DNA of 64,000 nt from Eutreptiella sp. 'Long Island Sound 2002' (Eukaryota; Euglenozoa; Euglenophyceae; Eutreptiales; Eutreptiaceae). The first letter of the stretch is position 1, and each line of letters opens with the position of its first letter. The stretch lies in contig OZ038385.1 of NCBI GenBank assembly GCA_964036045.1, positions 28,232,853 through 28,296,852 of the forward strand, written 5' to 3'. The position numbers were made by a program, and so were the translations under genes. Shown here in pieces: positions 19,082 to 43,707 of this stretch. The notes under the pieces were generated by a model. The model ran no database searches. It saw nothing but the letters and a program-made list of their open reading frames with translations, and was not told the DNA's origin.

Positions 19082-20888
19082 GGTAGGTAGGTAGGTGCAC
19101 TCGGTCGTGGAGAGGCGCCCCATGGTTCCCCCTGGCGTCGCCCCTGTGACGAACAGGAAGAGGCTTCGCGCGTGAAGAGGGGAGGCGGCTTATTTTCCGC
19201 TAGACCTGACTGTTGGCCCCCAACAAAGCGGCCCCGGGCTACGCCGGGAGGGCTGGTCGCCGCCAGCGTGACATGCTTGTCTCGCCGGGAGGGTGTGCCC
19301 CCGTGCTTGCGCACGTCCCCTCCTTTGGGCGGAACCCTAGGGGTTCACCGGACTTCCTGGCGTATCCCTTTCTCAAGGCGTGCATGCACTTTCTTGGTAC
19401 TAGGGTTCCGAGGCGCTTGGGTGTCGCACGCTCCGCCTCGAGTCCCAAAGCAGCGCAGGCCTTAGGATGCAGCCTTACCCCCGGTCTCCGGATCTCGTTT
19501 GGCCGGATCACCTGCATGGCACGGGCTGCCTCAGTGCCCGGGCTGAGGGCACTGGGTTTCCTACTGTTGTGTGGCGTTTGTGTTTGGGTCCGGTTGGCGG
19601 TTGGGTGCGGGTTTTGTTAACCCCGCCAGTCCTGGCTGGGGTCTTGGGTGGGTGTGTTTGGGCACGGTTTGTGGTGTTGTCCCTCTAGTGTCGGCTGTTT
19701 GTGGTGTTCGTGGTTGGGCTTTGGTTTCGGCCTGGTTTTGGGACGTGTGTGGTTTCGTGGGCGCCCCGCTTGCCCCCCGCCGTTTCCGGTTCCGGCGTGC
19801 GGTGTGGGCGTGTGTGCTGGGCCTGGGTCTCGCCTGTGCCCAGCCCTTCTTGGCTGGGTTGTCGGGGTGTGTTTTTTGCGCTTTGGTTTTTTCTTTTCTT
19901 TTTTTTTTTTTTTCGGGCTTTGTGGTCCCTGTCCCTCCATCCCCTTTCTTTCGGGCTGGGCTGGTGGCTCTCTTTTTGCTTTTTTTTTTTTTCCGTGTCC
20001 CTTTTCCCCGTGGTCCGCTGTTACTGGCTTGGTGTTGCCGGTTTTGGGTGGGTGGTCCCCCTGTGCCTCTGTGGGGGTCCTGTCTTCGGTGCCTTCTGGG
20101 GGGGGGCTTGGCCGCCTGTGGTGGTGTTGGCGGGCAGTTTGGTGGCTGTGGGCTGTTTTCGTGCCTTTTCCCCCTCCCCCATCCTTTTTTTTTTGGGGGG
20201 GGGGGGCTTGCCTGTTCCTCCCTCTGCCTTCCCTGGGCTGGCGCACGCACTGGCCTGCTTTCAGTGTTGTCTTCCGGGCTGCTGTCTTCAGTTGCGCTCT
20301 GTGTGGCCGCGTTCCGGCCCCATGGGTCGGGTGGGCTTTGTACACGGTGGGCTCGGCGCCCCTTCTTGCCGGGTTAGGTCCTGGCTCTGCCGGCTGGGCG
20401 GCTGCGCCAGGCGGCTGCTTGTGGTTTTGGGTTAGGAAGCCGGGGCTGTTCGTGTCCTTTCCCCTCTGCGGTGCCGGCTGTAATCTTCTGGGTGGTCCGC
20501 CACCGTTGTCGCCTGGCGCGCTGTGGCCCCGCGTGTGGCCTGCGGTGCTGGTGTGTGGCGTGCTGGCGCGGCGCTTTCCGGGGTGTGCGGTGGCTGGCTT
20601 TGGTTAGTCCCTCAGGTTAGGGTCAGTTGTGTCGTGCTGTGCCGCTCTGTGCCGCGTCGCGTCGCGTCGTGCTATGGTGCGTTGCACTGTGGCGCGCTGT
20701 GGTGCGGTGTGCCGTGGTCTCGCGTGGTGCCGCGGTGGGTCAGTGGAGGTCAGCCTGGCCTGTGTCGTGGTGCGGAGTGCAGGCCGGAGTGTGGCCGGCT
20801 GGTGGTTGGGGGGTGCGGTTAGGTGTGGGTGGCTCGCTGGGTCCGTGCTGTGGGGGCTTGGGCGTGCCGCTCGGGCTGGTGGGTCGGG
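19082..20888 (-). other. LINE B 3' UTR, distal part
   Basis: Mirrors 44292-46113 in LINE B' closely. It contains T-runs near 19895-19912, 19979-19992 and 20187-20196 (A-runs on the element strand) and C/A-rich low-complexity sequence. The last 100 bases contain GGGGCGACGCCAGGGGGAAC and end in ACCT repeats. The roughly 90-residue ORF at 19517-19239 is shared with LINE B' (45677-45994), but I recognise no family and treat it as conserved 3'-end RNA sequence. Confidence 0.6.
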
Positions 20889-21470
20889 TAGGTCTTCGGG
20901 AAATTCTGCTGAATGATCACGGTGTCCTTGGGGCGTGCACGCTGACTCTCACCCATGGACTCAATCTTCACCGGGCCTCGCAGACAGGCAGGCGTACTCG
21001 GGGTGTAGGAAAGGCGTTCCTTCTCGGAGGCAGACAAACAGAAATCAGGAGACGGACGGTGGAGGTGGCTTCCGAACGCCGTTTGAGTGGCGAAAGGCTT
21101 GCACTGCAGCTCGGCTGCGCTGGCAGGGACATGAGGGTCCGGGTCGGTGCCGCCGGCAGGCATGAGCTCATACTTCAGGGTCAGGGGGATGTCCATATCT
21201 CCGGTGCTGAACTGCAGGGGTCCGGGGCACCGGTAGTAATCTTGGCACTTCCAGTCTTCACGGCGCTCGGAGAAGGCCTTGAAGGGGGCACCGTCCAGCA
21301 GCACCAAGGCCTTCGCGATCGATCACAGCCTTTCACTTCCCCTTGCGGCGCTCGAAATTCATCATGGACGGGATCCGCGTGCCGCCGCAGTGCCATTCCT
21401 CCACTGGACGCAACAGGTTGGTGACGGACGCCCTCACGGACGTGAGACCAGCTGAGATCAAGCCCCCGGC
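20889..21470 (-). pseudogene. Captured phosphofructokinase (PFP-like) fragment in LINE B
   Basis: Encodes the C-terminus of a beta-type pyrophosphate-dependent phosphofructokinase. Visible: GGLISAG, RPVEEWHCGGT, SMMNFERRKGK, LLDGAPFKAF, then WKCQDYYRCPGPLQF. About 60 residues later in the same frame it encodes what looks like the N-terminus of an alpha-type subunit: EKERLSYTPSTPACLRGP and NFPKTY. Plant and alveolate enzymes have these landmarks in this order. A TGA interrupts after FERRKGK in both copies. A 4-base GATC gain follows in this copy only. It is a metabolic-gene fragment carried by the retroelement, not a working gene. Confidence 0.75.
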
Positions 21471-21932
21471 CGTCAATCCAAGTGCTTAGCAATACTCCGC
21501 GTCAAACCGCGACGGTAACGCAGCCCGGCCCTTATAGCCAAAGGCGTGGTCGCGTGACGGTCCGTGGGGTTGCCCTCCCTGGGGGCCTGTGCCTTGGTCC
21601 CGTGTCCTCTGGGGGTTTCGGTCCCCAGTCGTCGGTGCCGCGGCCGTGCCTTCGTCCTCTTCCGGTGCCTGTGAGGTGGCCTTTGTGGTGGCCGGGGTTG
21701 TCGGCTGGCGGTGAGGGCGTGGTGGTGCGCCGTGCGGCGGCGTTCCCTGCGGCTTCCTCTGTTGGTGTGACCCTCTCTCCCCGTGTAGGTGTGCCCTCCG
21801 TTCTCCGTGTGGTTTCCGGTGGCCGGTGGGCGTGCGCTGGTGTGATCCGCATGGCGTCCGATGTTTGCTTCGGTGGTGTGTGTTGGGGTGTTTGGTGGGG
21901 CTGGGGCGGCGCTGGTCCGCGTGTGCCTGCCC
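21471..21932 (-). other. LINE B 3' UTR, proximal part
   Basis: GC-rich sequence between the second-ORF stop and the phosphofructokinase fragment, matching 43103-43707 in LINE B'. No independent gene is supported. Confidence 0.5.
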
Positions 21933-22346
21933 TCACTTGGGGCCCTTCCGTGCCCTCTTGCTTGAGTGCTCCTTGGTGCCCCTTGCCCTTCCCTTGCCCT
22001 TGTCCTGCCCCTTCCTGGTGTGGTGGTGGCGGGAGGGGCGGGGTGGGGAGGGGGCGCCGGCGGCCCAGGCCTGGGGGTGGGTGGCCTGGAGCCACTGGCG
22101 GAGGGCTTGGGGGGTGTAGGGGGGGCGGAGGCCCTGGACCGCATCGCGGAGGAGGGCCTGCCATGCCGCTTGCGGCATGATGGCCTCCGGGGCGGCCTCG
22201 TTGGGATTTGCGGGGGTGCGGGTGCGCACCTCCTCGAAGGTATGCACCATGTGCACCCCTTCGTGCCTTCCCGCTCCTCCGGCCCACTTCACCCAGCGGC
22301 GGAGCTCCTGCAGAGCTGGGGGAGACCACCAATCGAGGTAGGCGGG
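21933..22346 (-). pseudogene. LINE B second ORF, C-terminal globular segment
   Basis: Separated from the rest of its ORF (31169 and above) by LINE C. Encodes WWSPPALQELRRWVKWAGG, then HMVHTFEEVRTRTPAN, AIMPQAAWQALLRDAVQGL and a basic tail ending in KRARKGPK and a stop. LINE B' keeps the same segment uninterrupted after its RS-rich region, which proves continuity. The regular spacing of hydrophobic residues suggests a small helical domain. No named family is recognised. LINE A has a shorter match. Confidence 0.65.
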
Positions 22347-22359
22347 GGCCCGGGGGGGG
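22347..22359. repeat. 13-bp TSD of LINE C, left copy
   Basis: GGCCCGGGGGGGG, repeated at 31156-31168. In LINE B' the same place holds one uninterrupted copy followed by the WWSPPALQ coding segment. Confidence 0.75.
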
Positions 22360-22814
22360 TTTGGTTTGGTTTGGGTCCAGGCCTGTGCCGGACGCCTTGG
22401 CCCACGGTCAGCACTCGCCTGTGTGCCGACACGACTGGGCTCGGCGAATCGCGGTTGTCCGGTCCCAAGGCCTGCCGGACTGTTGACCGCCCCCGTACCC
22501 CGCGGTGGCACTCGCGGGAGGGAGATGCCGCCGTGCCAGTGTGTGTGGCGCGCGCGGGGCAGGAGGGCAGGGCGCGCATGCTGGTGGTGCTCGCGGGGCA
22601 TGACGGGTCACACGGCTGTGCCGCGCCTGGCCCTGCCCGCATGAGCTAGTGGTGCCCTGGTGCCTTCGGCCGCCCGCGCGGCAGCTTGGCCCGTGTTTGT
22701 GGTCGCGGGCTTTGTCCCCGGGGGTGGGTGCGTTGGGGGGGGTTCGCTTGTCCTACCTCTGCCTCCCTGAGCACGTGGTAGAACCAGGAGTCGCATCTGA
22801 TCGTTGCTGGCAGT
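22360..22814 (-). other. LINE C 3' UTR
   Basis: Follows the ORF2 stop and ends with GGACCCAAACCAAACCAAA against the TSD. The short pentamer tail replaces poly(A). No ORF is supported. Confidence 0.7.
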
Positions 22815-25800
22815 TCACTGGGTGGGCCCGGTTGCAGGCTGGAGGGCCCAGCGGTGGCCCACACCGGCGGTGGCGTACAGCCACAGTGGGCCTAGGGCAA
22901 AAGGTTGAAGCGGTTGCGGCAGTGTCAGGGCGCGGTCCCCAGGAGGTACGGCCGTAAGCAAGGCCACGCCAGCCCCTGGGGGCTGCCCGTTAGACTCTGC
23001 CAATAGGGCAAGTGCCCAGTATAGGTCCTCTGGCGGCGATACTATAAGGTGTACTGGCGGTCCAGGGTGCCAGTGTGGCTCCACTGGAAGTGAAAGATGT
23101 AGCTGACCTGCACTGCATACACGCCACGACACCAGGCCCCGCACCAGGTAGGCCGCCGCCAGCGTATATACCCAGGGCACGTAGCTCTGAGGGTCACGGA
23201 AGGTGACGGCTGGGGGCTGCGGCGGGGGCCGGTCTGGGGAGCTGAGCGGGCATGGCAGCGTGGCCCAGAGGGCCGGCACCATAGGCAGGGACAGTGCAGG
23301 TTGGGCAAGCAGGCTTACGACCACTCGCGTGGCGCGACGCTTAGCGGCGGCGGAGAGGTCGGACAGGTGGTCGCTGGGCACGTGGTACCACAGGCCGGAC
23401 AGCGTGAGCACGTTGCCCACGTCGGCGTGGTCTGCCACATAGTGGGCGTCCCACGAGCACTGCAGGACTGGACGCCCGTCGCTGTCGAGGAGTGCACCTT
23501 CGGCGGTGACGGTAGCCCCACGGGCAGAGGTCACTTCGAGGAGGAGCTGCGCGCGGGCGTGGAGGAGATGTAGGTACGCGGCGGGGCAGCGGCTGCGGAC
23601 GTGTCTCCAAAGCTGGTGCTCCGTGACGCCGCAGAAATGGCATTCCATGGCGATGTTGGGGTCCGGGGGTGGCTGCCATTCCAGCGCTCGGTACGCGAGC
23701 GCGCGTTTGATGGCGCGTGTGGGCAGTTCATCAGACTCCAGGAGGTCGTAGAAGGGGCCCCCATCCGGTCGGAGGCACGAGGCACGGCGGCCGGCGAAGT
23801 AGGCCGCTGCTGCGGCATCGTCATATGCCTGGTCCAGACCTAGCTGAGGTTCGAGCAGCAGGGCCCCACGGTAGTACAGCAGCAGGGGCGAGGGGAGGTG
23901 CTGGGGGAGGGGGACGGCCCATGGGGTTGGGGACGAGGCACCACGGGCGGCTAGCTGGTGGGCCTCGCGATTGAGGAGGGCCAGCAAGTGAGTGTCCTGG
24001 GTATCATGCTGGGCTGGACACCACACCTCGTAGTGGGCTTGGAAGTCCAGGAGGGTGGGGGTGAGGCTCCGCCAAATTAGCTCTAGAATGGTGAGCTTGG
24101 GGGGGAACCTGGTGTAGGCACGGTGGAGTGCGGAGGTGCCGTCCAGGGCGGACGTAAGGCATCCCTGCCATCCCTGCAGGAGGTGCAGAGCCACCAGGCG
24201 GGCCAGCCACTCCATGCCTGTGGGGGTGGCCCATACGCGCAGGCCGTACCAGGCGCGGAGGATGATACCGTCTGTTGGGGCATAGAATACCACGCCCCCG
24301 CCGCCCAGGTGGTGGCGGAGGGCGGCATCAGTGGAGACAATGAGGTGTTGGTGGGCGTGCAGGATGGATGGGTCGGCGTCGTAGTGGATGGGCATGGCGT
24401 TGACGGAGGAGTCGGGGGGGATGGAAATCTGGAGGGAGAGGCGCTGGGCTGCGGCTGCAAGGGGGTGCGATTCACTGCCTGGAATGTTGGTGGAGCTGAG
24501 GTACAGGGCTGACTGGCGAGCTAGCAGGCTGCGGGAGCACGTGGCTTGCGCGTAGGTGAGGGGGAGGTGGCACGCAGTCCGCAGGGGCAAGTGGGGGCAG
24601 CCTGGGCCCCCGTAGCGGGGGGGCAGGGACATTAGGGCGCGGGAAACCCAGCACGGAAGGCCCAGGACCTGTCGGTAGTAGGCCCGGGCCTGGACGGCCA
24701 GGTCCTCTATGTGCTTAGGGGGGATGGCTACACCTGAGGCGATGAAGTCCAGCTGGGAGAGGGCAAAGGCCCACAGGGAGCGCAGCGCCAGGATAGTGTT
24801 CGTGGGGACGGCTCCGATGCGGAGGCGCATACGCTGTACTTGCTTGGCGAGGTCGGCATAGGACTGTGGGGGCTGCAGCGCATGGGACAGCGGGATGCCT
24901 ACAACTTGGGGGCAGTCGCGGGAGGTGTCGGTGAGGTAGAAGGGTACTGGGGATGTGAGTTGGATCGGACCGGACGCTCTGAGCCGGAGAGCAAAGAAGC
25001 GGAGTTTGTCCAAGTGGACAAGGCCTCCCTTGGCCAACGTGGCGCGAGTGCAGAGGCGGGTCAGGGCCACCAGGGAGGGAAGGGTAGGGCGAACCAAGCG
25101 GCGATCATCGGAATACGACAAGTTGCTGACGGGGATGCCGGCTGGGCCTGGGGGCACCCGGACGTCGTTGGGGTGGGGTAGGCTGCCACTGACCACGAGT
25201 TCACCGACTTGGTAGGTGTCACCGGAGGGGTTATCGCCCTGGTTCCACCCCTCTTCGGTGACGTAGGGCGGGGCGAACCCGTCCTCTGCCAAGGGATGAA
25301 TGCGGAGGCGCCCATAGTATTTAACGGCCCACGGGCCGAAATCCCAGGGCAGCTGGAGGATGCTGTGGAGGGTGGTGCAGTCTTCCCGTTGCTGGCGGAG
25401 GAAGGCATCGGCAGAGTCCCAGTCCGTGACGGCCGCCGTGCCGTGGGTCTCCAAGCTGGAGAAGACGGTTGCCCGGAAGGAGAGCGCCAGAAATGCCGGC
25501 CGCATGTCGGAGCGGTAGGCGAAGGCGTCGGGGGGAAGGGCGCCTGACACCTCTAGGGACTGCACCAGCATGGTGCGGGCGGCGCGGGATTCGGTGCATG
25601 TGAGGGGGGAGGTGAGGGTGACGGGGCGGTGGGCTTTGAAGAGGTGGGGGAAGGGCTTCCCCTTGTCGATGCCCATCATGACGGAGTCGAGGGAGAGGGA
25701 GTCCATGCCGGCGTCCACTAGTCGGAGGTGGTGTTGCACTCCCTGGACTCCGCCGTGGCGCAGGTGGTGCAGGAGTGCCTGCGGGCATTGGTCCAGGCCT

Positions 25801-26702
25801 GCGAACAGGGAGCCGGCTGTCGTGGCTGACGCCCAGACTCGGTCGTCCCGAAGCACGGGTCCAGCTGCAACGGAACGGCTTTGCTGGTCTCTGTGCTGGC
25901 AGTCCCGGGGGTCCAGTCCTGCGGCCAGCAGGTCACCGAGCAGGGGGGTCGGAATGTGCGCGATGGGGTCGAAGTGTGGGTCCCACTTGGCTGGGTCGTA
26001 CATGGCTGTGAGAAAGTCGCGGTCCAGGGTGTGGCCTCGATGAGCTGTGGTGGCTGCCGCTTGGTCATGGACCTCCTGAAGGCGGGCGCTAGGGGAGGGC
26101 AGTGTGGCGCCAATGTCGGGCAGGATGCCGCTGTAGGGGCGGAGAGGTTTGGAGGGGCGGCAGAGGGCACCTTTGGTGGCTGAGGTGATGGAGGTGGAGC
26201 GCAGTACGTCGTCGGGACGTTCCACGCCGTGGCGCGCGGCTGTGCTGGCTAGAAACTCTCGAAGATCAGCCAGGTCGGAGTCGGTGCGGGGGGCCGATCG
26301 GAGCCGGAGGTCCCTCAGGACGTGGTCGAGAGGTCTGGGGTGCGGGATGAGGCGACGGGCGGCGGCCCATAGGGACTGGAGGTAGGCATTGGGGCCGACA
26401 GGGTACGAGGAGAGCCAGCCCCACAGGAGATCAACAAGGGCAGCGAGGCGGGGGAGGGTACCTGGTGGTGCGTGGCGCCAGCGGATCATGCGCCAGCTGC
26501 GAATGTCCGTGAGGCCTTCCATGGGTTCCACGGTGACCAGGAGAGGCTTGTGGGGCGTGGGCGAGGGGAGGACGTCAGCATCGGGGATGGACCGGGCTCC
26601 GCGGGTGAACACGTGATCAATGCACGTGGCGGTGTGGACCCCTTGGGAGGAGGAGAAGTGGGTGGGGGTGTCAGCTGGGAACGCTGGTCTGAAGCGCAGC
26701 AT
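22815..26702 (-). CDS. LINE C ORF2, main part: endonuclease end, RT, RNase H, zinc finger
   Basis: 1295 codons open. CIDHVFTRG (26620) and PHKPLLVTV close the EEP domain. RT motif A is TDWDSADAF (about 25400), motif B is GWNQGDNPSGDTYQ (25230) and motif C is SYSDDRRLV (25110); the polymerase aspartates are intact. RNase H follows with STDAALRHH (24340), GMEWLARL and a closing LNREAHQLA, where His replaces the usual Asp. A CHFCGVTEHQLWRHVRSRC finger (about 23640-23590) follows. The ORF start given is only the first Met after the upstream frameshift; the true protein begins near 28165. It primes and copies the element RNA at a nicked target. Confidence 0.85.
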   Translation of the reverse strand: MLRFRPAFPADTPTHFSSSQGVHTATCIDHVFTRGARSIPDADVLPSPTPHKPLLVTVEPMEGLTDIRSWRMIRWRHAPPGTLPRLAALVDLLWGWLSSYPVGPNAYLQSLWAAARRLIPHPRPLDHVLRDLRLRSAPRTDSDLADLREFLASTAARHGVERPDDVLRSTSITSATKGALCRPSKPLRPYSGILPDIGATLPSPSARLQEVHDQAAATTAHRGHTLDRDFLTAMYDPAKWDPHFDPIAHIPTPLLGDLLAAGLDPRDCQHRDQQSRSVAAGPVLRDDRVWASATTAGSLFAGLDQCPQALLHHLRHGGVQGVQHHLRLVDAGMDSLSLDSVMMGIDKGKPFPHLFKAHRPVTLTSPLTCTESRAARTMLVQSLEVSGALPPDAFAYRSDMRPAFLALSFRATVFSSLETHGTAAVTDWDSADAFLRQQREDCTTLHSILQLPWDFGPWAVKYYGRLRIHPLAEDGFAPPYVTEEGWNQGDNPSGDTYQVGELVVSGSLPHPNDVRVPPGPAGIPVSNLSYSDDRRLVRPTLPSLVALTRLCTRATLAKGGLVHLDKLRFFALRLRASGPIQLTSPVPFYLTDTSRDCPQVVGIPLSHALQPPQSYADLAKQVQRMRLRIGAVPTNTILALRSLWAFALSQLDFIASGVAIPPKHIEDLAVQARAYYRQVLGLPCWVSRALMSLPPRYGGPGCPHLPLRTACHLPLTYAQATCSRSLLARQSALYLSSTNIPGSESHPLAAAAQRLSLQISIPPDSSVNAMPIHYDADPSILHAHQHLIVSTDAALRHHLGGGGVVFYAPTDGIILRAWYGLRVWATPTGMEWLARLVALHLLQGWQGCLTSALDGTSALHRAYTRFPPKLTILELIWRSLTPTLLDFQAHYEVWCPAQHDTQDTHLLALLNREAHQLAARGASSPTPWAVPLPQHLPSPLLLYYRGALLLEPQLGLDQAYDDAAAAAYFAGRRASCLRPDGGPFYDLLESDELPTRAIKRALAYRALEWQPPPDPNIAMECHFCGVTEHQLWRHVRSRCPAAYLHLLHARAQLLLEVTSARGATVTAEGALLDSDGRPVLQCSWDAHYVADHADVGNVLTLSGLWYHVPSDHLSDLSAAAKRRATRVVVSLLAQPALSLPMVPALWATLPCPLSSPDRPPPQPPAVTFRDPQSYVPWVYTLAAAYLVRGLVSWRVCSAGQLHLSLPVEPHWHPGPPVHLIVSPPEDLYWALALLAESNGQPPGAGVALLTAVPPGDRALTLPQPLQPFALGPLWLYATAGVGHRWALQPATGPTQ

Positions 26703-26739
26703 GCAGCCGGTGCCGCGACATGCGGCTGCGAGGGGGTTG

Positions 26740-28165
26740 CGGAGCTCTCACGGGACATGTTAAAGTCCCCACCGATTAGCTCTAGGGCTGCGCGAAGGTA
26801 GGCGGCGAGGGTGGTGAGGTTGAGCAGGACTGCACGACGAGCCTTGTAGTCCAGGTGGGGGTGGACGTGCACGGAGGCGAGCAGGATGAAGCCGATAGTG
26901 TGATGACGCACCGTGGAAGCGAGGAGGTCTGGGGCATCGTGCTCTACCCGGGGTCTCGTGGCAGGGTGCTGCAGGGAGCGACGCCAGCCAATCATGAAGC
27001 CCGTTCCGCAGCCCTCGGCGGAGCTGGTGTGGTAGGCGTAGCCCGACGGTAGGGCCAGCAGTAGAGGCTCAAAGGTCCACAGCTCCTGTAGCGCGAAGCA
27101 GTCCACCTCTAGAGCGAGAAGGACATGCACTACGAAGTCCACGTGGCTGGCCACACCGCCTATGTTCCACGAGAGAAATACTAGCCCGGCGTGTCGGCAT
27201 AGATGGAGCGGGGAGAAGGCAAGGGAGTGCTGGTGGAGCGCCCAGGGGGGGGAAGGGAGAAGCAGGGTGTGGTCGGGGTGGAAGCACGAGGCACCTGGGC
27301 GAACTGGGGCAGCTGGGACACCATGGAGAAGTGGCAGGCCGGGGGGGCGGACGTGTGAGCGTCGGGCAACGTCGGCGGTGAGGTGCGTGCGGCCCGCGCA
27401 CGGGTGCAAGCACATGGCATTCGGAAGCAGGAGGGATGGGGGGGGGGGGTGCTGGATGGAGGCGGCAGGGACCTGGGGGCGGCCACATGACGGGCAGAAC
27501 CATGCTGCGATGGAGATGGGGACTGGGGGGGCTGGAGTGAGCCACAGGCGGTGGCCCGGGACGCCATAGAGGGAAGTATTGTAGTGTGCTCGGGGGTGGG
27601 GCCAGGGGGTGAGGTGTGTGGGAGAATCATCGTAGAACCAAACCACATACCCGTTGACGGTGAGGGGGACGCTGACGACAGGGTCGGGGTCATCGCTGTG
27701 GACGAGGTGATGGGCCTGGGACAGCCAAAGAGCGAAATGGCGCAGGGTCTGGAGCATCTGTCGGGGAGGGGGTCGGGGACCGTGCGTGGGTTCCGCGGGC
27801 GGGGGTAGGGCGGCTGTGAGCTGCGAGACGAAAGACGCCTCGGCCGGGGAGAGGGGGGAGTCGTCGGGCGGGGGCAGCAGGACATGGTCAGAGCTGTGGC
27901 ACAGGGGGCAGATCCAGGGTGCCTGGGCACGAGTGGCGACGGTGCCGCACTGCCAACACGCAGCGGGGCATGGGCTTCCGGGGGTCGGGCTGGGGGCGTG
28001 GGGCTGGGTTTCTGTCTCCGGAAGGAGGGCTAATTGGGATGCTGCATGATCGGCGAGGCCTCGGAGGTCTCGGTGCTGGGGATACGCCAGGGCGCAGTCG
28101 AGGGCGAGCCGCGTGAGAGGGGTGGACGGGAGGGCGCCAGGGGGCAGGCAGAGGGGCAGGGCCAG
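26740..28165 (-). pseudogene. LINE C ORF2, N-terminal part: zinc ribbon and EEP endonuclease
   Basis: The frame is open directly after the ORF1 UGA (28166-28168) and in the same frame; the first ATG appears only at 27757. Early sequence reads CWQCGTV, then 13 residues later CPLCHSSDH, a CxxC-CxxC zinc ribbon (about 27960-27890). The EEP motifs are LSWNIGGV (about 27165), DCFALQELW (27095) and GGDFNMSRE (26775). A frameshift just after GGDFNMSRE (about 26750) separates it from the rest. It would nick target DNA. Marked pseudogene because of that single frameshift. Confidence 0.7.
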
Positions 28166-30160
28166 TCAGTTCACGCGGGACCCCTGATATGGAGTGACGC
28201 GGTGGGCCGTGTGGGGTGCGTCACGCGTGTGGGGCACTGTCTCGTACGCGCGGGGTGCCTGTGTTGAGGCGGAGGGAGCTCGGCTGGCGCTGGAGGAGGT
28301 GGTGAACCCCGGGGGGGGGTGCGCTGGGGGGGGCATCTCACTGGGGCGATGACTAGCGCGGCGGTTCTTGGGGGCTTTGAGGCGCTTTTTGGGTGGGGGT
28401 TTGACCGGGCTGTCAGGGAGGAAGAAGGGCTCCCCGTTGGCTGTGCGGGAGTCCAGGGTGATGGTATACTGATGGTGGGGGTCGACATAGGTGCGTGTGG
28501 GGGCACTGGCGAAGAGGGCGCGAAACGGGCTGGAGGGGACGGACACAAAGTGGGTGCCCTCGTGGAGGGCGTGCGCCGGGATGGCGATGGGTGCCCCGAC
28601 ATGGTGGGTGAGGGCGGTGGACGCCTGTGTGGCATCCGGTACTGTGCGAAGGCCTCTGAGACGAATCACTTGAGGGGCATCGATGGGCGCTGGGGGCAGG
28701 AGGCCGGTCGGGGAGGCTGCGGGGGCCAGAGGAGACGACGGGTAAGGGAGCGGGCATGTCGGCTGGGGCCACGAGTTCGTTGGGGGGGTGGGCAACGGGC
28801 CCGGGGGGGGCATGTGCGGGGGCGGGCCAGATGTTCGCCTTTCGAACCACGCATAGGCCGCTGCCGGGCCGGCTGCAGGCTGCAGGGCTGTGCGCACTTC
28901 GGCGATGAGTTGGTCGAGGCCCTGAGTGCGAGTGGTGCCTTGGACCGCGGCTGAGACCGCGACTCGGAAGGTTACCGGGTCGCGAACCGCCAGAAGTAGG
29001 TCGGTCGCCTGGAGGGGGATCACTGTGGGGCGGGCGGCCAGGAGGGTGGCTGCGGCGGAGGACCAGACGAGGTCATGGCGTGCGGCGGCGGCGTCCACGA
29101 GGGGGTCAAGGGTCTTGAGGGCTGCGAGTTTGTGGGACTCCAGGGCGGACGACCCGTGGAGGTCTTCTACGGTGGAGATGAGGTCGAGTAGGTTGGCCTG
29201 CAGGGATGGACGGAGGTTGGCGGGGGATGCGTACCAAACCGTTTTAACGGCCGACGCCAGGGAGCGACCGTTCTTGACCGACCGCAGGGTAGTCATGGCG
29301 CTCTCGGGGATGGACATGTCCGTGCACATGACCCGGATGGACTGGGCGACGTGTTCTGCGTGGCTGTCCGGAGTGGTTGCGAGCCGCTCTATATCGGTGG
29401 TGAAGTCGGAGGAGGCGGCCAGCGTGCCAGGTTGCGTCAGCATTCGTTTCCACAGAGGCTCCGAGGAGGCGGAGGTGCCGGCGAGCTCGGCTCGTTTGAT
29501 GGCCACGCGCGATAGTATCCCTGGGTACGTGAGCGTGGATTTGTGCCGAGTGATCTCGGCGTTCCACTGCTGCGTGGATAGTGGGCAGGGGGCGGGGAGG
29601 CGGGTGTCTCCCTGGGGGGTGATTTGGCATCGCAGGGGCTTCTTGTGGTGGGCCGCGTGCCAAGTGAGTAGCCAGTGTACAAGCGGGACTCGGTCTATGG
29701 GCCTTTTGGGTAGCTCGTCTGCTGCCAGGAGCATCAGGAACTGGTCTGGGGAGGCCGCTCGGAGGGCATCGGTGAAGGGGCCGACATGTGCGGCTGCAGC
29801 CTGCTGCAGCTGGTGGGGCGCATCTGGCGGGGCGGCTGCCAAGTACGCGACCAGGTCACACATCGCCGCCTGGTACGTGCTCCAGTGGAAGTTGGCGTCC
29901 CTCTGCTGCAGTGTGCCAATGTCCAGCGGCGGCAGGGCTTCGACCGCGACAGCCCAGAACAGGCAGAGCGCCCCAAGCATGTTGTCGCTGGGGTGGAAGG
30001 CCTCCACAGGTGCAGCAGACTCATGGTGAGTGACTGTGAGCTGCAGTTTGCCAGAGGCTTCGCTCCAGCCTACAGCTGTCGCAGGCCAAGACTCCGCAGG
30101 GCGGATGTCGGCCGCGCGCTGGGCCGGGGATTTGCCTGCGAAGGGATGTTTGGGCGCCAT
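28166..30160 (-). CDS. LINE C ORF1, putative nucleic-acid-binding protein
   Basis: 664 codons from ATG 30160 to UGA 28166. The N-terminal 430 residues look helical and Ala/Leu-rich, with balanced composition. The C-terminal part is Pro-rich and ends in basic patches (PPPKKRLKAPKNRRASHRP). No CCHC knuckle or RRM is recognisable, so the RNA-binding role is inferred from its place upstream of ORF2. The stop UGA is followed by CUG, and the frame continues into ORF2 with no shift. This suggests readthrough or reinitiation. Confidence 0.7.
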   Translation of the reverse strand: MAPKHPFAGKSPAQRAADIRPAESWPATAVGWSEASGKLQLTVTHHESAAPVEAFHPSDNMLGALCLFWAVAVEALPPLDIGTLQQRDANFHWSTYQAAMCDLVAYLAAAPPDAPHQLQQAAAAHVGPFTDALRAASPDQFLMLLAADELPKRPIDRVPLVHWLLTWHAAHHKKPLRCQITPQGDTRLPAPCPLSTQQWNAEITRHKSTLTYPGILSRVAIKRAELAGTSASSEPLWKRMLTQPGTLAASSDFTTDIERLATTPDSHAEHVAQSIRVMCTDMSIPESAMTTLRSVKNGRSLASAVKTVWYASPANLRPSLQANLLDLISTVEDLHGSSALESHKLAALKTLDPLVDAAAARHDLVWSSAAATLLAARPTVIPLQATDLLLAVRDPVTFRVAVSAAVQGTTRTQGLDQLIAEVRTALQPAAGPAAAYAWFERRTSGPPPHMPPPGPLPTPPTNSWPQPTCPLPYPSSPLAPAASPTGLLPPAPIDAPQVIRLRGLRTVPDATQASTALTHHVGAPIAIPAHALHEGTHFVSVPSSPFRALFASAPTRTYVDPHHQYTITLDSRTANGEPFFLPDSPVKPPPKKRLKAPKNRRASHRPSEMPPPAHPPPGFTTSSSASRAPSASTQAPRAYETVPHTRDAPHTAHRVTPYQGSRVN

Positions 30161-31155
30161 GGTCTACCTGTGGAGAGCGCGAGGAGGAGTGTGACTGGGA
30201 CAGGGGTGAGGGTAGGGTATGGAACAAAACCTTAGGAACTGGGCTGGAGCCAGGGAGTCAGGCAGGAGGGGCTAGGGGAACAACAGGAAGGGGGGCAGGA
30301 GTGTACTCAGGTAGTAGCGTGCAGCTATGGCCTCTCGCGGACCTCGTGTGAGCGGTGCTGGCCTTAGGGGCCTGTTATGGGTCGGCGCTGCGCGGGCACT
30401 AGGGCAGGGGTTCAGGGTCGGAGGCACACACACGCAGGGTGGTGGGACGCTGGCTGGGGTGCAGGGCAGGAGGCGCACACACGCAGGATGGTGGAATTCG
30501 TGATGTGGGAGGGGGGGAGGAGGCATATGAGTTGCGGCGGTCTGGGGCGTGCTGGCTGGGGGCGGACTTGATGCTGGAGGCGGCGTGCAGATGTCCCGGG
30601 GCGGCCGGGAAGGACTAGACTGACATGCAAGACGTGGCCGTCATTGTTGGTCGTAGTGGCGTCCCGGCTGTTCGTGAGGTCGTCAAGTGTGAACCAGGGT
30701 CCGCCACCACCGGGCCCTGGTTGCTAGCGCGTGTGGGGGGGGGGGGGGGGGGACGCGTGTGGAGGGCTGTGTGATGCCTGGTGCTCCAGGCCCCGGCAGG
30801 GAGGCCATGGGAGCCTGACGCTGAGCCCGCCGGGGGAGTAATCGATCTGGACACGCCGCCTCCTGGTCATGGACATGCTGCAAGCGGCCCCACGACTGCA
30901 TGAGGCACGGGGGCGCGCTCCCTTGGCGCGCGACTGGGGGGGTCCACACCCCATGACTGCCAGAGGCACAGGGGTGCTGTTCTGGACTGGACCTTCCGCC
31001 CACGGCGCCAGGGGGTAGCAGGAGGAGGGGCTCCAGGGCGCGCTGAGCGCTGCCCTGCCCTGGAGCCTGCCCGGGCTCGGGGCCCGGGTGGCGGTGCTAC
31101 TGTCCTCGTAAACGGGGGGGCCCGGAGGGCACACCACCCGAGTGACCGCTCCGTT
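30161..31155 (-). other. LINE C 5' UTR
   Basis: About 1 kb between the TSD and the ORF1 start. Holds a 49-base imperfect duplication (GGAGGC.CACACACGCAG at 30420 and 30469) and an 18-base G-run at about 30735. A promoter is expected here, as in other full-length LINEs, but no recognisable element was found. Confidence 0.55.
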
Positions 31156-31168
31156 GGCCCGGGGGGGG
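31156..31168. repeat. 13-bp TSD of LINE C, right copy
   Basis: GGCCCGGGGGGGG, the same as 22347-22359. It borders the 5' end of LINE C. Confidence 0.75.
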
Positions 31169-33600
31169 GAGGGGTCCGTGCCCGTGGTCGTGGTGCGGCG
31201 GGGGGAGGACGTGGACCCGCGGTGGTGGCGGGGGTGGCGGTGCCTGGGGGAGCGGGAGCGGCGGCGGCGGGGGCTGGGGGTGGAGGACGGGTACGGGCGG
31301 AGGGGGGAGCGGGAGGGGGAGGTGGACATGGGGCGGCGGTGGCGCGCTCGGTGGCGTCCGAGGGGACCGGGAGTGGTGGTGGCGGGGGCTGGGGGTGGTG
31401 GATGGGTACGGGTGGCGGGGGGAGCGGGGAGCCCGGCGGGGCGTGTGGGGGGAGGGGGAGGTGGACGTGGGGCGGCAGTGGCGTGCCTGGCTGCGTCAGG
31501 GGGAGCGGGAGTGGTGGTGGCGGGGGCTGGGGGTGGGGGTCTTGTTTGGCCGGTGGGGGGAGGGGGAGGGGGACATGGGGCGGCGGTGGCGCTCGTGGTG
31601 GTGCCCGGGGGAGCGGGAGCGACGGGAGCGGGGTCCCGGGGGGTCGTGGTGGTACCTGGGGGAGCGGGAGCGGCGCGAGTGGGTGGTTGAGGCGCGGTGG
31701 GAGTGTGGGCGCCGTGGGCGAGTGTGCCGTGCGGGGGGGGAGCGGGAGCGCCGCCGTTTGCGGGACCGGGCCTCATCGCTCGAGTCGGGCCAGTCCGGAA
31801 GTGTCGGCGGCCCCTGGGGGGCCTCGCGCGGTGCCGCCTGGGGGGGGAGGTCCCCCGTCGCCCATGGGGCCCCTTCGGCCATCGGATGGTGGGCGGGGGG
31901 GGTACGGGGGTGCTGGCTGGTACGGGGGGGGTGGCTGGTACGGGGGGGGTGGCTCCTGGCGGTAGGTGGGGTAGGCGGGTGGGGCGCTGGGTGGCTGCCA
32001 TCCCGTCCGCTGGTGCTGTTCGTGCACGGGGGGTTGTGGCCCGGTGGGGTAGGGCGGTGGGCAGTGGTAGTGGTGAGGGTGGTGTTGGTAGTGGTGGTGG
32101 TGGGGCCGCTGGTGGTGGTGGTGTGGGTAGTGGTGGGGTTGGTGTTGCGGGTATGGCCCATGGACTCCTTGTGGGTTTTCCGGTCCCCCTTGTGGGGGTG
32201 GGGGGTTGGGCATCGTGGGCAGTCCCCGGGGCTGCACTATGTGGTGGGCATGGGGGAAGGGTCCGGGGCCGGGCTTGACGGTGACGGTGGTCGAGGGGTC
32301 CCACGTCCCTGGGTCGGTTTGGCCGGCGGTGGTGGTGGTTTGTGGGGGATGGATGACGGGGCGCTTGGTGACGGGGATGCGGACGAGGGCTTGGACGGGG
32401 TCGTGCTGGGTGGCCGTCTCTGCGGTGGTGGTGGGTGCCGGCGGGAGGGGGGCGCGGGTTGCGGTGGGTGGGGGGTCCTGGCTTGGGCGAGGGCCCGGGC
32501 GGGGGTGGTGTCGGGTGGGTTTGTGTCGTTGCGTCTGCGGTGTTGTGTGTGCTCGCATGGGCGCCGGCTTGGGTTTGCGGTCGGGTTTGGGGTTGGGGTC
32601 CGGTTTGGGTTTGGGGTCGGGTTTGGGGTTGGGGTCCGGTTCCAGGTTGAGGAGTACCTCTGTCCGGAGGTGTGAGGGCGCCGATGTCGGGTCGGGGGGC
32701 GTCCCGGTGGGTTGCCGGGGTGCCTGAGTCGCCTGTGTGGGGGTTGGGGGGTCGGTGCGTGCGGCCGCGGCTTTGGCTTTCGCCGTGGCCTTGAGGATGA
32801 GTTTGGCGGGGAGGGGGGGGTCGGAGGATGAGGTGGAGGAGGTGGACGAGGCTGAGGATGAGGAGGAGGTGGTGGACGCGGGTTTTGGCTGTGATGCGGG
32901 CGGGCTTGTGGGCGGCGGCTTCTGCTGCGGCCACGGCGGGGAGGATGGAGGGCATGTCCTCGGGTTGTAGGTTGGGGGCGGGCGGCTGGGGGGGCCCGGT
33001 CGTGACCTGGCGGCCCGGCGGGCCGATCTGGTCGGCAGCGGCGGGGGAGGGAGGCGCGGGGCTGCGGCCTTCTCTTTCTGGGCTCGGCTGGGCCCGGGTC
33101 CTGCAATGTGCGAGGTCGTGTGGGTTGGTGTCCGCGGGGGGGAACAGTTCGCGTGGGCTGCATTTAGGGGCCGGGGGGGGTGGGCCTGGGTCCTCTGGGG
33201 TGTGTGTGGGGGGCGTCGGCGGGCCACTGGGTGGGGTGGGCGTGCCGCGGGGCGCGGGGCTCCCCTCGGCGGGTGTGTGTGGGTTGTCGAGTGTGGGGGG
33301 CGGTGAAGGGTGTCCGCTGGGTGGGTGTGTGGCGGGCGTGTGCTGGTGTTCGGGCGGGTGGGGGAGGCCCGTGTCGCGGGGCCCGGGGGTGCGCGCGATG
33401 GTGGGCGTGTGTGGGTCTCCGGTTGAGCAGCGAGAGGGTGGGGCATGGGCGGGGATTGTGCTGCGGGGTGTGCTGTGTCGGTGTATGTGTCCGCTTGCCG
33501 CGCGCTTGCGTGGGCAGTTGTAGGCCGGGCGGTATGGAGGAGAAGCTTGCCGTCTTCTGCTGCCGCGGCAAGGATTTCGCAGACGAGCTTTCGTATCTGG
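31169..33600 (-). pseudogene. LINE B second ORF: Pro-rich and RS-rich middle
   Basis: Continues from the protease region through Pro/His-rich sequence (HHYHCPPPYP, PPPPYQPPPPYQ near 31930), then a shifted frame with an SR-type domain: SSDEARSRKRRRSRSPPARH and RRSRSPRYHH-like units (about 31790-31500). A coding minisatellite around 32581-32643 gives PNPKPDPKPKP repeats. Frame changes make the exact path uncertain. The sister copy LINE B' has the same order with length differences and then runs straight into the WWSPPALQ domain, showing that this is one ORF interrupted here by LINE C. Confidence 0.55.
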
Positions 33601-34801
33601 TGGACCTCTTGGTCAGTGGTGGGAAGGGGGCATGCTAGCTTTGGGCTAAGACCCGCGCGGTTGAGGACCCTGTGGATGGCGTGGTACCCGCAGGTGAGGG
33701 ACTGCTGCGGTCTGGGGGGGGGGTTTGGTCGTGTGTCCGGGCCTGCCTCGACTTGTGTGTGGGCGGTGGGGATGGCCCAAACCCAGGGCACGGTCCCCGT
33801 GGGCGGCCAGCGGCGCTGGATCCAGTGGGTTAGGCAGAGCATGGCCAATCCCAGGTGGTAGCCTGCCTTCCCTGAGGTGATTTGGGCCAGGGCGCGGGCT
33901 GGGGGCGTGTCCCCTGGCTGGAGGACACCCTGAGGATCCTGTGCTGGGTGGTGGGGTCCCCCACTGCCCCTGGTGGGGCGGTCTTCGGGGCGAACATGGT
34001 GTCTGTCCCCTGGATGATCCATTGCGGGCCGGGGGACGTAGCCGTAGCGGCTATCACGTAGTAGTGGCCGCGCTCGAGGACTGTAACCCAGACCTCCGGC
34101 GGGGGGTGGTCACTGTCTTTAGGTGGGGGGGGGAGGTCGTCGTCCGGGATGCGGAGGCCGGCGGCGCGGAGGGCGGTGTCGCGGTTGGGCGCGGTGGCCT
34201 GTTCCCACTGCTCCGGGTTGTTCGGGTCCGCTGGGTGGTCCGTCTCCGCTGGGGCCCGTCGTAGGCGTACGGTCCCTTGACGAGTGACGTTGATGCCGGT
34301 GTCGTGCGTCAGGGCCTGGCCCCAATCGATGGGGGGGATCCAGATGGGCTGGCCCCGGGTGTGTTTGCGGGCTCGCCAGAGCACGAGGTCTACTATGGTC
34401 TCGTGGAGGCCGCTGCCTGGGGTGGTCAGGTCCCGGAGGGCTTTGACGGTGAGCTTCGTCCAGTCCTCTTGTAGGCGGTACCAGCCCAGAGGGGTGGTCG
34501 GGGCCCTGTCTTGGAGGGTTGCTCGGAGGAGGTCGGGGTCGCGGATGGTGGCCAGTGTGAGGGGGGGGTGCCCCGGGTCCGGGGGGGGTTGGCTGGATGG
34601 GCTGCCGGGGTCTTGCGCGTCTACATCGATGGATGGTTGGCCCTGGCTGGGCTCGGCCGGACTGGGCGGTGCCGGGTGGCTTCTTGGGTGTGAGACGGGT
34701 CTCGGGGCGCTGTGGTGGTGCCTTGGAGACCTGTGGATGGAGACGGGGGGCGCGTGCGGGGCGCGGAGCGGGTTAGTGGACGTCTGGGTCATGCACGGCA
34801 T
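33601..34801 (-). pseudogene. LINE B Ulp1-like cysteine protease
   Basis: Begins at ATG 34801, overlapping the RNase H ORF stop (34773) by 29 bases. Landmarks in order: LTVKALRDLTTPGSGLHETI, like the LxxL-LND segment of C48 peptidases; IWIPPIDWG; WVTVLERGHYYVIA with the candidate catalytic His (about 34070); WIIQGTDTM with an acidic residue; and QQSLTCGYHAIHRVL with the Gln and catalytic Cys (about 33680). A frameshift near 33915 separates the His/Asp half from the Cys half. Ulp1-type enzymes remove SUMO or ubiquitin-like tags. The role in a LINE is unknown. An OTU-like fold is the alternative. Confidence 0.55.
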
Positions 34802-37028
34802 GGTAATGGATGAGACGCTGCATGTGTTCCCTGGCGGTGGGGTCGGTGAGTTGCTCCGCGTGTCTTAGCAGGAGGTGTTTGCGGTGTACCATTTGGGCCG
34901 CTGCTCTGCGGACTGCTTCTAGCTGGAGGTGTGCTGCTGCCTCCATGGGGCTTTCCGTGTGTTTGTTGAGGTGTCGGTGCAGGGCCTGTGTCACTGCCCC
35001 TCTCATGGTGGCTTCTTTGATCAGGGGGTCCCGGAAGAGGTGTTCGGTGGCCTGGTGTGCGTGGCTGTGGGTTGGCCATCCTTCGTGTTGTCGCAGGGTT
35101 TCTGCCGGGGACCAGCCCACTAGGGTGTCCCTGTCTGTATGGAGGGGGCATTTCTTGAAGTGTTCCCAGTCCTCCGGGGTGGTGTGGTCGCATGGGCAAC
35201 GGGTGTGTTCGTCGGGGACGTGGATGTGCTTGCGGGCGAGCCATCTGGCGACCCTGGTGAGGAATGGCAGTTGCTCCCTGAGGAGCTGGATGCGTCGTTT
35301 TTGGTGGTGGGCTGGGACGTTTGCTGGGCGGAGCGCTGAGTGGTAGAGGGGGACTTGCAGTCTGTCTTGGAGCTCCTGGATGTGCGCCCGGCTGTCTGCG
35401 TCGCCGAGCACGCGGGCGAGATGTTGGATGAGGTTGGGGTAGTGGTACGCTCTGTCGTGGGAGGAATAGGGGGCGTCCTCTGGTACCCAGTCCGGGGTCT
35501 GGTGGGGCTCGGGTATAGGGGGCACGTGTTGCAGGTGTGTGTGGTTGCGGCCGAGGTCAGGGATCTGGAGGGCTGGTAGGTGTGTTGTGCGCTGGTGTAC
35601 TGCCTGGTTGTCGACCTTACCATTTCCGTATTGGTGTCTGTGGGACTCTTGTTTCACGATGTGGAGTTGGACGTAGGGGGGAAGGCTGCGTAGGGCTTTC
35701 CAGAGTAGCAGTGCCTGGGTGCCGAGGCTCGTCGCGGTTGCTTTGTGAAGTGGTTGCCTTGCTATGCGGAGGAGCAGGTGCCTGTCGACAGTGGCGTCTA
35801 CCACGAACCAGACCCAGACGATGTGCGGGGAGTGGGCGGGTAGGTGAACCGCGACCTCGGTGATGGCGTCGGCCATGGCCCCTAGCTCCCCGTGGGAAGA
35901 GGCCCCATAGGTGGTGTGGCCCGTGTGGTGGTCCATGTGGTAGTGTCCACCGGTGTGGGTTAGCTACAGGGTGGCCCCCCCGGTGATGGGCGTGAGGGCG
36001 GATTCGCCTGAGGCGTCGGTGAAGAAGAGCCGGTCCGCCGGTGATGGTTGTGGGAGGCGGCATGGGTTCATGGGCAGGTAGGCGTATATGGCAAGGCCCG
36101 TGGCGAGGTGGGCTACTGGGGTTGTGGGCTGCAGGATGGGGGTGGCGTACACCCCTATTCCTTTGGAGATGATGTGCTTCGCTTGGGGGGACAGGGCTAT
36201 GAGTCCCTGCTTCGGCTGTCCTTGTGTGAGGTAGGAGTAGATGTAGTGGAGGATGTAGGCTGTGTCGGGGTTTAGGTCGTGGCATGTGAGGGTTTGTGTT
36301 CGGTGCTCCGGTGTGTGGCAGGAGTGGTGGAGCGGATAGTAGGGGTGCTCGTGCTTGCCCGTTCTGCCTGGCTCGTACATGCTGTAACGGATGGCGACCC
36401 CTGCCGGGTCGGGGCGGGGGCATGTGGTTGTAGTGGTGAAGAGCCATTTGGGCGCGTGGTCGGGGTTCCATGCTACCGTGGGGTTAGTGTCGGTGCGGTG
36501 GAACCATGGGGCTATCCATGCGTAGGCCTGTGGTGGTAGGTGGGTTGTGGGGTGGGTGTGGTGGCGTGCTATGAGGTGTAGTACGGGCCATGGTGTGGTT
36601 GGTGCCTCGGGGTCACAGGCCCAACATGTGCGTGGCATGCTCTGGGAATCTTCGGGGACTTTTGGTAGGTCTCGGGCGGTCATGTGGTGTTTCGGTATGC
36701 GCCATTTTGCCCCGTGGTGGATGACGGTGGTCTGCGTGGGTTTGGCTTCATTCGGGGCAAGTAGTAGGGTTAGTGGTGGGACTGGGCCCGTCACCGGGGG
36801 GACGGGTTCGTGTTTCGATCCGGTGGGTGCGTAGGGCGGTGTCGCTGGGATGGGTCGCGGGTGTTGCTTTTTGAATTCTCGGTAGGCTGTGCGCATGTTT
36901 TTGCTGCCCGGTAGAGTGTGTCCCGCTGCTCGTGCCGTCTGCCTGAGGTACTGGTGGAAGAGGCGGTATTGTGGCCATTCGGGAAGCTGTAGAAAGGGGG
37001 TGTGGTGTGCCCCGCTGTGGTGCAGGAC
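34773..37028 (-). pseudogene. LINE B RNase H and zinc motif region
   Basis: In frame with the RT ORF but reached only past TAG 37029-37031. RNase H begins RLFFTDASGES (about 36020) and is cut by an in-frame TAG at 35964-35966. It resumes with SSHGELGAMADAI, VWFVVDATVD and VKQESHRHQYGNGKVDNQAV. The motif CPCDHTTPEDWEHFKKC (about 35200-35150) matches the CxC-H-C motif of LINE A. The end is TAA at 34773. The first Asp is intact, unlike LINE A, so the two copies have lost function independently. Confidence 0.75.
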
Positions 37029-40034: not shown

Positions 40035-41320
40035 TCTACTGAGACAGTCCGCCAGGGTGTTGTCCTTGCCAGGAACATACACAACTGTGAGGTCGAACTT
40101 GGCCAAGGTTTCATGCCATCTTGCCTGTCGGAAGGCGGGACCTGAGGGGGTGTCCACGTGCTCTTTCTGCCACGACTGCAGACTCTGATGGTCGGTGCAG
40201 ACGGTGACGGGATGCAGGCCTATGTACCCAGCCGATTTACTGAGAGCCATGACGATGGCATACACCTCCTTTTCTCGGGGCGTCCACGTCCGTCTGTGGC
40301 CTTCCGCCAGGACTCGGCTCCAGAAGGCCACCGGCACGTGCCTCCCATCGTCAAGCACTTAATCCGACACAGCGCCAACGGCGTAGTCGGAAGCGTCGGT
40401 GCGCAGGACGAACCCTCGGTCAGGATCCACGACGTGCAGACCCACTGCGGATAGCAGCGCCTGCTTCATCCCCTCAACGGCACGGTCGGACTCTTCATTC
40501 CAGACCAGAGCCTTCTTGGACCCCTTCTTGGTCTCCTCTCGGTTGCCCTTGAGCATGGTCGTCATGAGGGCTGCATACTCCGCATACATCTTGATATACC
40601 CCAAGTAGTAGTTGCAGAATCCCAAGTACGCCCGTAGCTCAGAGACCGTTTTGGGCTTTTCCCAGTGCTCAATTGCAGCCACCATGCCAGGTAACGGCTT
40701 CCGCTGCCTGTTCCCAACTACGTGGCCAGCGAAGACCACCTCGCTTACCGCAATGGTGGCCTTGTCACTGCTGCCCCTGAGCTTGTGCCGAGCCAGAAGG
40801 TCCAGCACTCTGGTGACGTCCCTCTCATGTGCCTCCAGGAGCTCCTCATAGCTCATACTGGGGTCCCAGGACGCGACGATCACGTCGTTCACGAAGGGGT
40901 CCGCACAGTCACGCACCGGCTCAAGCACGTTCTCCGGCATCCGCTGAAAAGCCGCATTGCCGTTGGTAACGCCCATGGGCATCACCTCCCACTGGAGGGG
41001 TACAAGTGGTGTGCTCATTGCTGTGCAAGCACGGGACTCCTCGGCGAGAGGCATCTGATGATAACCATGTTTCAGGTCAATCACCGTGAAAATCCTCCGC
41101 CGGTATTGTCTTTGCAGCATGTCCTCAATGAGGGGCAGCGTATAGCTGTCATGCTGCGTTTGGGTGTTTAGGCCGCGGTAGTTGACCAAGAGCCGCCACT
41201 CTCCGGCCACCTTCTTGAGAACGACGAAGCACGGGGAGGCCCACTCGGAGTTGCACGGCTCAAGCCAGCCCCTCTCGATGAATTCACAGAGGATCTTCTC
41301 CATGACCTCCTTTCTCTCGC
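40035..41320 (-). pseudogene. Gypsy D RT and RNase H, second copy
   Basis: Starts in the middle of RT at the LINE B' junction (41320). RT motifs: VIDLKHGYHQMPL; the polymerase box reads FVND (about 40890) where the sister copy at 46.7 kb has FVDD, so the catalytic Asp is lost. A TAA at 40359-40361 replaces the Gln codon of GAVLEQ. RNase H follows: DASDYAVG, PREKEVYAIV and VCTDHQSL, running to SRWAY at the LINE B insertion. The segment up to 40298 duplicates 46114-47136. The rest is single-copy gypsy D sequence. Confidence 0.85.
40298..41320. repeat. 1023-bp direct repeat, left copy
   Basis: Matches 46114-47136 base for base in length (constant offset 5816, no indel) with scattered substitutions. 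It brackets LINE B' exactly: this copy ends at TTTCTCTCGC against the LINE 5' end. Confidence 0.85.
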
Positions 41321-43102: not shown

Positions 43103-43707
43103 GGGCAGGCACACGCAGGGACAGGACGCCGGAAGCGACACCACATGGGGGCAGGAAACCACCCAAGAACCAGGAAGGGGCGGGAACGGGGACCAAGACA
43201 CGGAGGAAAAGGGCACCACGGCAGGCACCACGACCCACACCCAGGAAGGGCACACCACGACGGGGGGACCAGCGCCGCCCAAGCCCCACCAAACACCCCA
43301 ACACACACCACCGAAGCAAACATCGGACGCCATGCGGATCACACCAGCGCACGCCCACCGGCCACCGGAAACCACACGGAGAACGGAGGGCACACCTACA
43401 CGGGGAGAACGGGCCACACCCACAGAGGAAGCGGCAGGGAACGCCGCCGCACGGCGCACCACCACGCCCTCACCGCCAGGCGACGACCCCGGCCACCACA
43501 AAGGCCACCTCACAGGCACCGGAAGAGGACGAAGGCACGGCCGCGGCACCCACGACTAGGGACCGAAACCCCCAGAGGACACGGGACCAAGGCACAGGCC
43601 CCCAGGGAGGGCAACCCCACGGACCGTAACGCGACCACGCTTTTGGCTATGAGGGCCGGGCTGCCTTACCATCGCGGCTGGACGCAGAGTATGGCTAGGC
43701 ACTTGGA
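43103..43707 (+). other. LINE B' 3' UTR, proximal part
   Basis: GC-rich linker between the second-ORF stop and the captured fragment, parallel to 21471-21932 in LINE B. It is longer than in LINE B by a local insertion near 43120-43270 (GGACAGGACGCCGG onward). No gene is supported. Confidence 0.5.

Follow-up and report, generated by a model that had tools for sequence, protein, structure and literature searches.

A piece of a host phosphofructokinase gene inside a LINE, with a probable single capture and spread as a passenger

A 655-bp piece of a host gene for PPi-type phosphofructokinase (PFP) was very probably inserted once into one LINE of about 12 kb and then spread to hundreds of loci as a passenger. 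The donor gene, both junctions, the empty sites, the single clade formed by the sampled loaded copies, the copy number and the decay of the piece are all directly observed (copies of the LINE with the piece are called loaded, those lacking it empty).

The captured piece and its parental gene

In the window (the whole stretch of 64,000 nucleotides that was analysed), the minus strand from 21549 to 20891 consists of a 655-bp piece of a fused beta-alpha PFP gene and a 4-bp duplication. The features of the piece are as follows.

20891..21549, minus strand: captured PFP piece, delimited by alignment to the parental gene (L041) and by profile matches
21317..21324, minus strand: 4-bp tandem duplication GATCGATC, frame-shifting, absent from the gene and from the second copy in the window
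21333..21335, minus strand: TGA stop in place of the Trp codon 439 (TGG) of the parental gene, present in 22 of 22 copies, including both window copies
21550..21560, minus strand: left-junction filler of 11 nt, CCGTCACGCGA, which is also found without change in codons 20-23 of the parental gene

The initial annotation had recognized a PFP fragment at 20889-21470 from six peptides. That observation is real: all six are found on the minus strand where it had placed them, and the true span (21549-20891) reaches about 80 bp further on the 5' side. The peptides RPVEEWHCGGT and SMMNFERRKGK share one frame, and a second frame holds LLDGAPFKAF, YYRCPGPLQF, EKERLSYTPSTPACLRGP and NFPKTY, because the GATC duplication (21324-21317) divides the piece. 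Both frames match NCBIfam TIGR02477 (PFKA_PPi) in collinear order, the upstream one at profile positions 432-480 (E=7.8e-9) and the downstream one with its best stretch at 485-525 (E=1.1e-10 for the whole frame, with two stretches). The last 49 residues, searched alone among 18,950 models, match only TIGR02477 at profile positions 2-48 (E=0.058, weak alone); judged by these positions, they are the start of the next (second) domain, as predicted. A PDB search by sequence with the second piece returned 1kzh, a PPi phosphofructokinase, as the sole match (4.4e-5), and with the first piece 1kzh at 0.11 plus one unrelated match at E=1. A Pfam search of both pieces, in the two frames, gave no match. 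Chance resemblance to PFP was considered and is ruled out by the profile matches and by an intact homologue at 93%. The window piece is itself not a functional PFP gene: at 655 bp, with a TGA stop and a frameshift, it holds no open frame for the whole enzyme.

A protein search (31 matches from 2133 candidates) found P0001, a fused two-domain PFK of 1137 aa from JGI data. The parental gene, at G000:C12:4715473, lies in the same genome as the window (2.28 Gb in 2205 contigs searched): residues 1-367 of P0001 match 100% at C12:4715473-4716573, inside one open frame of 1171 aa that contains two PFP domains, the second of which matches the query again at 42%. The window piece spans the C-terminus of domain 1 and the N-terminus of domain 2. 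The proposal that both halves belong to a host PFP fragment, derived from a fused beta-alpha gene and lying across its domain junction, is thus borne out by the TIGR02477 matches, by 205 identical residues among the 220 aligned across both frames with P0001 366-585, and by the parental open frame on C12.

Counted from the Met of P0001, the piece corresponds to CDS nt 1101-1755 (third base of codon 367 to codon 585), within the first 949-codon open stretch of the parental gene. The gene tracks P0001 up to codon 949, diverges and picks up again about 1.1 kb on; from this alignment, the interruption appears to be an intron. As the captured codons lie in one open stretch before the putative intron, DNA and mRNA sources are indistinguishable and splicing cannot be inferred; splicing was therefore dropped as proof of an mRNA origin. 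Looked at as a processed pseudogene, the piece offers no intron removal to be read, the only interruption noticed being the one after codon 949; it is internal, with no poly(A) tail, and comparison with the empty sites reveals no duplication at the insert edges.

Five more genome matches to P0001 are at 30-32%. A more distant tandem PFP-like gene is found at C1548:39766-42736 (G000; L033 and L035), with two matches, at 62% and 42%, to the first P0001 domain. A search of viral contigs with P0001 found no relatives. The tandem architecture of P0001 resembles that of the PPi-dependent PFK2 of Toxoplasma, which has two PFK domains; as described in PMC8836295, the latter is an intact enzyme gene, whereas the window has a domain-junction piece only.

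The carrier LINE and its loaded and empty copies

The piece is carried by a LINE, designated LINE C, of which the window contains two copies.

19082..40025, minus strand: carrier LINE C (copy 1), about 12.1 kb without the nested LINE, 5' end approximate
37029..39857, minus strand: part of LINE C with a reverse transcriptase (RVT_1 match at E=4.2e-13) and an endonuclease-like domain (Exo_endo_phos at E=1.9e-4, which falls short of the cut-off)
22360..31155, minus strand: unrelated nested LINE, flanked by a target duplication of 13 bp (22347-22359 and 31156-31168) and ending in a (CCAAA)n tail
41320..46126, plus strand: second copy of LINE C (copy 2), 5'-truncated, with the PFP piece, from comparison of the window with itself
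43635..44289, plus strand: PFP piece as carried by copy 2, which differs from the parental gene by 3.1%

LINE C is inserted in a Ty3/gypsy element, with the 9-bp repeat TGGGCCTAT at 40034-40026 and 19081-19073. Its ORFs lie at about 39.9-34.8 kb. The endonuclease-reverse transcriptase frame is followed by a second region and a proline-rich stretch, then by the PFP piece, and about 1.8 kb of further sequence leads to a 3' tail of (ACCT)n. The reverse transcriptase, an endonuclease match below the cut-off, the simple-repeat 3' tail, the target duplication and the 5' truncation of copy 2 are the marks of a LINE (non-LTR element). The reverse transcriptase frame has at least 92 homologues at E<=1e-10 (best 7999 candidates scored), and among the 92 listed, 91 come from ENA contigs, which are 88 kb to 7.8 Mb long. 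Three loci (L009-L011, the same loci as L013, L018 and L017) are collinear with LINE C at 91.5-97.6% in pieces of more than 900 bp and have the PFP piece at the same position.

Copy 2 sits between direct repeats of gypsy reverse transcriptase sequence (40297-41323 and 46113-47139; 1,027 bp, 98.3%). Positions 19065-21918 match 46126-43266 at 95.7%, both segments including the PFP piece, and the match continues from 21919-22359 to 43116-42677 at 96.4%. Copy 2 runs on continuously where the nested LINE cuts copy 1 at 22360-31155; this uninterrupted copy and the 13-bp target duplication rule out the candidate reading that the piece is part of the nested LINE. The fragment had been assigned to the 3' UTR of a "LINE B", a label that was left undefined and may or may not denote LINE C. 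The sense orientation within a LINE 3' region is upheld; the nearest LINE frames (22815-30163) belong to the nested LINE.

The exact 34-base right junction of loaded copies occurs 180 times in the genome and the exact 34-place empty junction 275 times (0 for the reversed-pattern control in both cases); these are lower bounds, because exact matches alone were counted, and the two patterns differ in strictness. A 601-bp query gave 1083 first-look candidates, of which 40 were scored, every one at 98-100%. Six protein clusters over the second half of the piece contain 375 member ORFs (193, 41, 122, 12, 6 and 1), which may stem from more than one assembly. Twenty of the 39 scored loci outside the window were fetched (L012-L031). 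All 20 share an identical right junction and 19 an identical left one, L026 ending right at the junction; all 20 have an (ACCT)n 3' end followed by unrelated flanks, as expected from LINE mobility.

In a tree of the LINE flanks, the 21 loaded sequences (19 fetched copies and both window copies; L026, which has no flank, was omitted) are monophyletic with a support of 0.965 and nested among 20 empty ones (17 with GCC and 3 with ACC at the site). The loaded sample was picked by likeness to copy 1, so old loaded copies are under-represented. One loaded clade inside the empties points to a single capture and to an internal insertion rather than a 3' transduction; on this tree, one capture event is most likely. 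In the flanks, the empties of the sample that come closest to the loaded copies agree with them at about 91%, so that they stand for the recipient LINE subfamily approximately and not base by base. The initial annotation's view that the fragment was amplified with the LINE, for which it proposed counting copies, agrees with the 180 exact loaded junctions, the shared junctions and the one loaded clade sampled; capture followed by spread with the element is what characterizes a retroelement with a captured cellular gene.

A diverged loaded LINE subfamily was also seen among the proteins (P0145, P0146, P0147, P0150 and P0151), with in-frame deletions within the PFP piece. P0146, P0147 and P0150 have the left junction of the other loaded copies, and P0145 begins just inside it. 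The two largest clusters of this subfamily, P0150 (140 members) and P0145 (81), might represent ORFs from one shared set of copies. In most empty ORFs, the residues at the insert site are GNPTDAYPTHQ or GNPTDTYPTHQ; of the 26 listed, several are off by at least one residue.

Decay of the piece and routes of capture

The captured copies differ from the parental gene by 2.0-3.1% (22 aligned copies). The stop at Trp439 is present in 20 of 20 fetched copies and so is the GATC duplication (L012-L031); copy 2 of the window has the stop and no duplication, the other 21 aligned copies both. Six changes are fixed in 22 of 22 copies: one silent, four amino-acid changing and the stop. Two further loci, L062 and L063, lack the stop and have an open frame that runs across the piece and the LINE sequence on either side of it, over all 267 codons fetched. 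L063 has 8 differences from the gene, retains Met406, Trp439, Ser575 and Arg580 and has no duplication; L062 has 14 differences, among them every change fixed in the 22-copy set except the stop (five of six). N550S occurs in every aligned copy (the 22, L062 and L063). The exact donor-type context of Trp439 is found at 23 places, one being the parental gene; for at least 3 of the other 22, a loaded junction is found at a distance of 439 bp, on comparison with the 100 of 180 junctions that were listed. The donor-type Trp439 and the open L062 and L063 show that the piece was open at capture and that the numerous class later lost its open frame; a short coding phase is possible, given that L062 and L063 are open across piece and flanks. 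The decay stages form no clean ladder: the changes at nt 1107, 1117 and 1705 are common to L062 (no stop) and copy 1 and missing from copy 2 (with the stop), a conflict that implies recurrent change or recombination among copies.

That the piece has been kept for a function, e.g., as an extension of a LINE protein or in small-RNA control of the PFP gene, is very improbable. The open frames of L062 and L063 and the 97-98% likeness of the 22 measured copies to the parental gene would agree with such a role, but the stop and the frame-shifting duplication in all 20 fetched copies contradict it, and the piece is apparently too young for its likeness to indicate constraint. Copy 1 and copy 2 differ by 20 substitutions, 8, 5 and 7 at codon positions 1, 2 and 3, so that a third-position excess is absent in this small test. 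From its sequence, the PFP piece looks like a passenger with no visible coding role.

The junctions are CACGGACCGTCACGCGA/CCACGC and GAAGACC/TACCCG (slashes mark boundaries), and the parental gene diverges outside both. The empty site reads GGAC/GCC/TACCCG in 17 of 20 empty copies, the nearest included, and the loaded site GGAC/CGTCACGCGA/655 bp ending ACC/TACCCG; microhomology with the parental gene amounts to two bases (CC) on the right and one (C) on the left. Ten bases are extra on the left; with the C before them, which is shared with the LINE, they equal CDS nt 58-68 of the parental PFP gene. As a measure of chance, 7 of 11,468 LINE 11-mers are found in CDS nt 1-1101 and 38 if the whole of that strand of the locus is taken, and 29 of 20,000 shuffles of the 11-mer match. 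The filler match, which is short and was spotted post hoc, favours a two-piece patch from one gene. The filler may instead be a chance match or belong to an unsampled LINE variant: P0168, an empty-looking protein with 1 member, could carry the 11 nt with no insert, so a LINE variant might have had these bases before capture.

The most probable course is that the 655-bp piece entered the 3' region of the LINE in sense orientation, most likely once; if the recipient resembled the nearest sampled empties, the joining to the LINE on either side used 1-2 nt of microhomology and cost about 1 nt. Ordinary retrotransposition of the descendants of that LINE would have carried the piece to hundreds of loci, and in their untranslated sequence it would have persisted as a neutral passenger. 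For the capture step itself, we infer either repair of a break with PFP DNA or cDNA, or template jumping, in which the LINE reverse transcriptase switched between LINE RNA and PFP mRNA. Repair, i.e., a break in a LINE copy mended with a PFP DNA or cDNA fragment through microhomology end joining, has about an even chance of being the right account. The little or no loss at the insertion and the short microhomologies agree with it, and it has a precedent in mouse zygotes, where pieces of spliced mRNAs or exons were described at induced breaks, often with microhomology (PMC4516963); however, the break left no trace, and template jumping fits the identical junction features.

A jump of the reverse transcriptase from LINE RNA to PFP mRNA, copying codons 585 to 367 and then 23-20 before going back to LINE RNA, is a serious candidate that falls somewhat short of even. 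Provided that the filler comes from PFP, it would account for the presence of two pieces of one gene in collinear order; it would also account for the 1-2 nt microhomologies and for the return to the same LINE position. Against it, the filler match is short and post hoc, the captured codons cross no intron, and free jumping would not be expected to lead back to within about 1 nt of where the enzyme had left. The more specific claim that the LINE's own enzyme wrote the insert in these two PFP-mRNA jumps (codons 585-367 and 23-20), re-entering its own RNA within about 1 nt, is tentative. A 3' transduction, in which a LINE upstream of the PFP gene was read through and took its 3' flank along, is extremely unlikely. 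The position of the piece in the LINE 3' region and its sense orientation would suit it, but about 1.8 kb of LINE 3' sequence and the (ACCT)n tail lie downstream, and the piece comes from the interior of the gene, with its end in coding sequence. In empty relatives, the site is flanked by LINE sequence on either side, which contradicts read-through of flanking DNA unless all empties are deletion products; in view of this and of the 275 empty sites, the word "transduced" in the initial annotation had to be given up.

Known parallels and neighbouring elements

Capture of cellular genes by retroelements is a known phenomenon, here unusually well documented in one genome. It is often deduced from the chimera alone. 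The classic carrier is Bs1 of maize, an LTR element. Like LINE C with its PFP piece, Bs1 contains an incomplete piece of a host gene, that of the plasma-membrane ATPase (PMC13317346); Bs1 holds pieces of three genes, whereas here the element is a LINE, and the parental gene, empty sites and loaded sites are found in one genome. In 3' and 5' transduction by L1 and SVA, host sequence is likewise mobilised by a retroelement, as outlined in the same source (PMC13317346), but by read-through of flanking DNA, whereas the insert in LINE C is internal, with LINE sequence on both sides. The repair of breaks with reverse-transcription products in mouse zygotes yields exon pieces truncated at both ends with short microhomology, as here; the events described in that source were seen at Cas9 breaks (PMC4516963), whereas the present one occurred naturally, within a mobile element by which it was then spread. 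Among the papers listed in the literature searches, no earlier report of this LINE-PFP case was found.

With the donor, at least 180 loaded and at least 275 empty sites and several decay stages in one genome, the capture event can be read closely. For annotation, it is a warning that a single LINE passenger can account for hundreds of PFP-like matches in a genome of this sort. If the LINE reverse transcriptase did write the insert, LINEs would be able to gain internal patches of host mRNA in one retrotransposition cycle, with flanking DNA unmoved, and early, fully open chimeras could be raw material for new LINE-encoded proteins.

The window also contains LINE A (4607-15899, plus strand), of the same clade as LINE C, with a (TTAC)n 3' tail and a long GC-rich 3' region, three 3' frames of which gave no Pfam match. 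The second region of LINE C is homologous to that of this LINE at 4.6-15.9 kb (24.7-35.6% identity over the matches). Ten further window ORFs were searched against Pfam for other captured genes, and only the endonuclease domain of the nested LINE scored above its cut-off. An Rfam search of the window gave 0 matches, and a search of the genome contigs with P0124 found no relatives. Two insertions of the clade of LINE C have very long target direct repeats, far beyond usual target duplications, namely the 1,027-bp pair around copy 2 and a 516-bp pair around LINE A (4091-4606 and 15900-16415, 96.9%), compared with 9 bp for LINE C. At 51766-53264, the window contains a tandem repeat of 419 bp in 3.6 copies with 92% matches.
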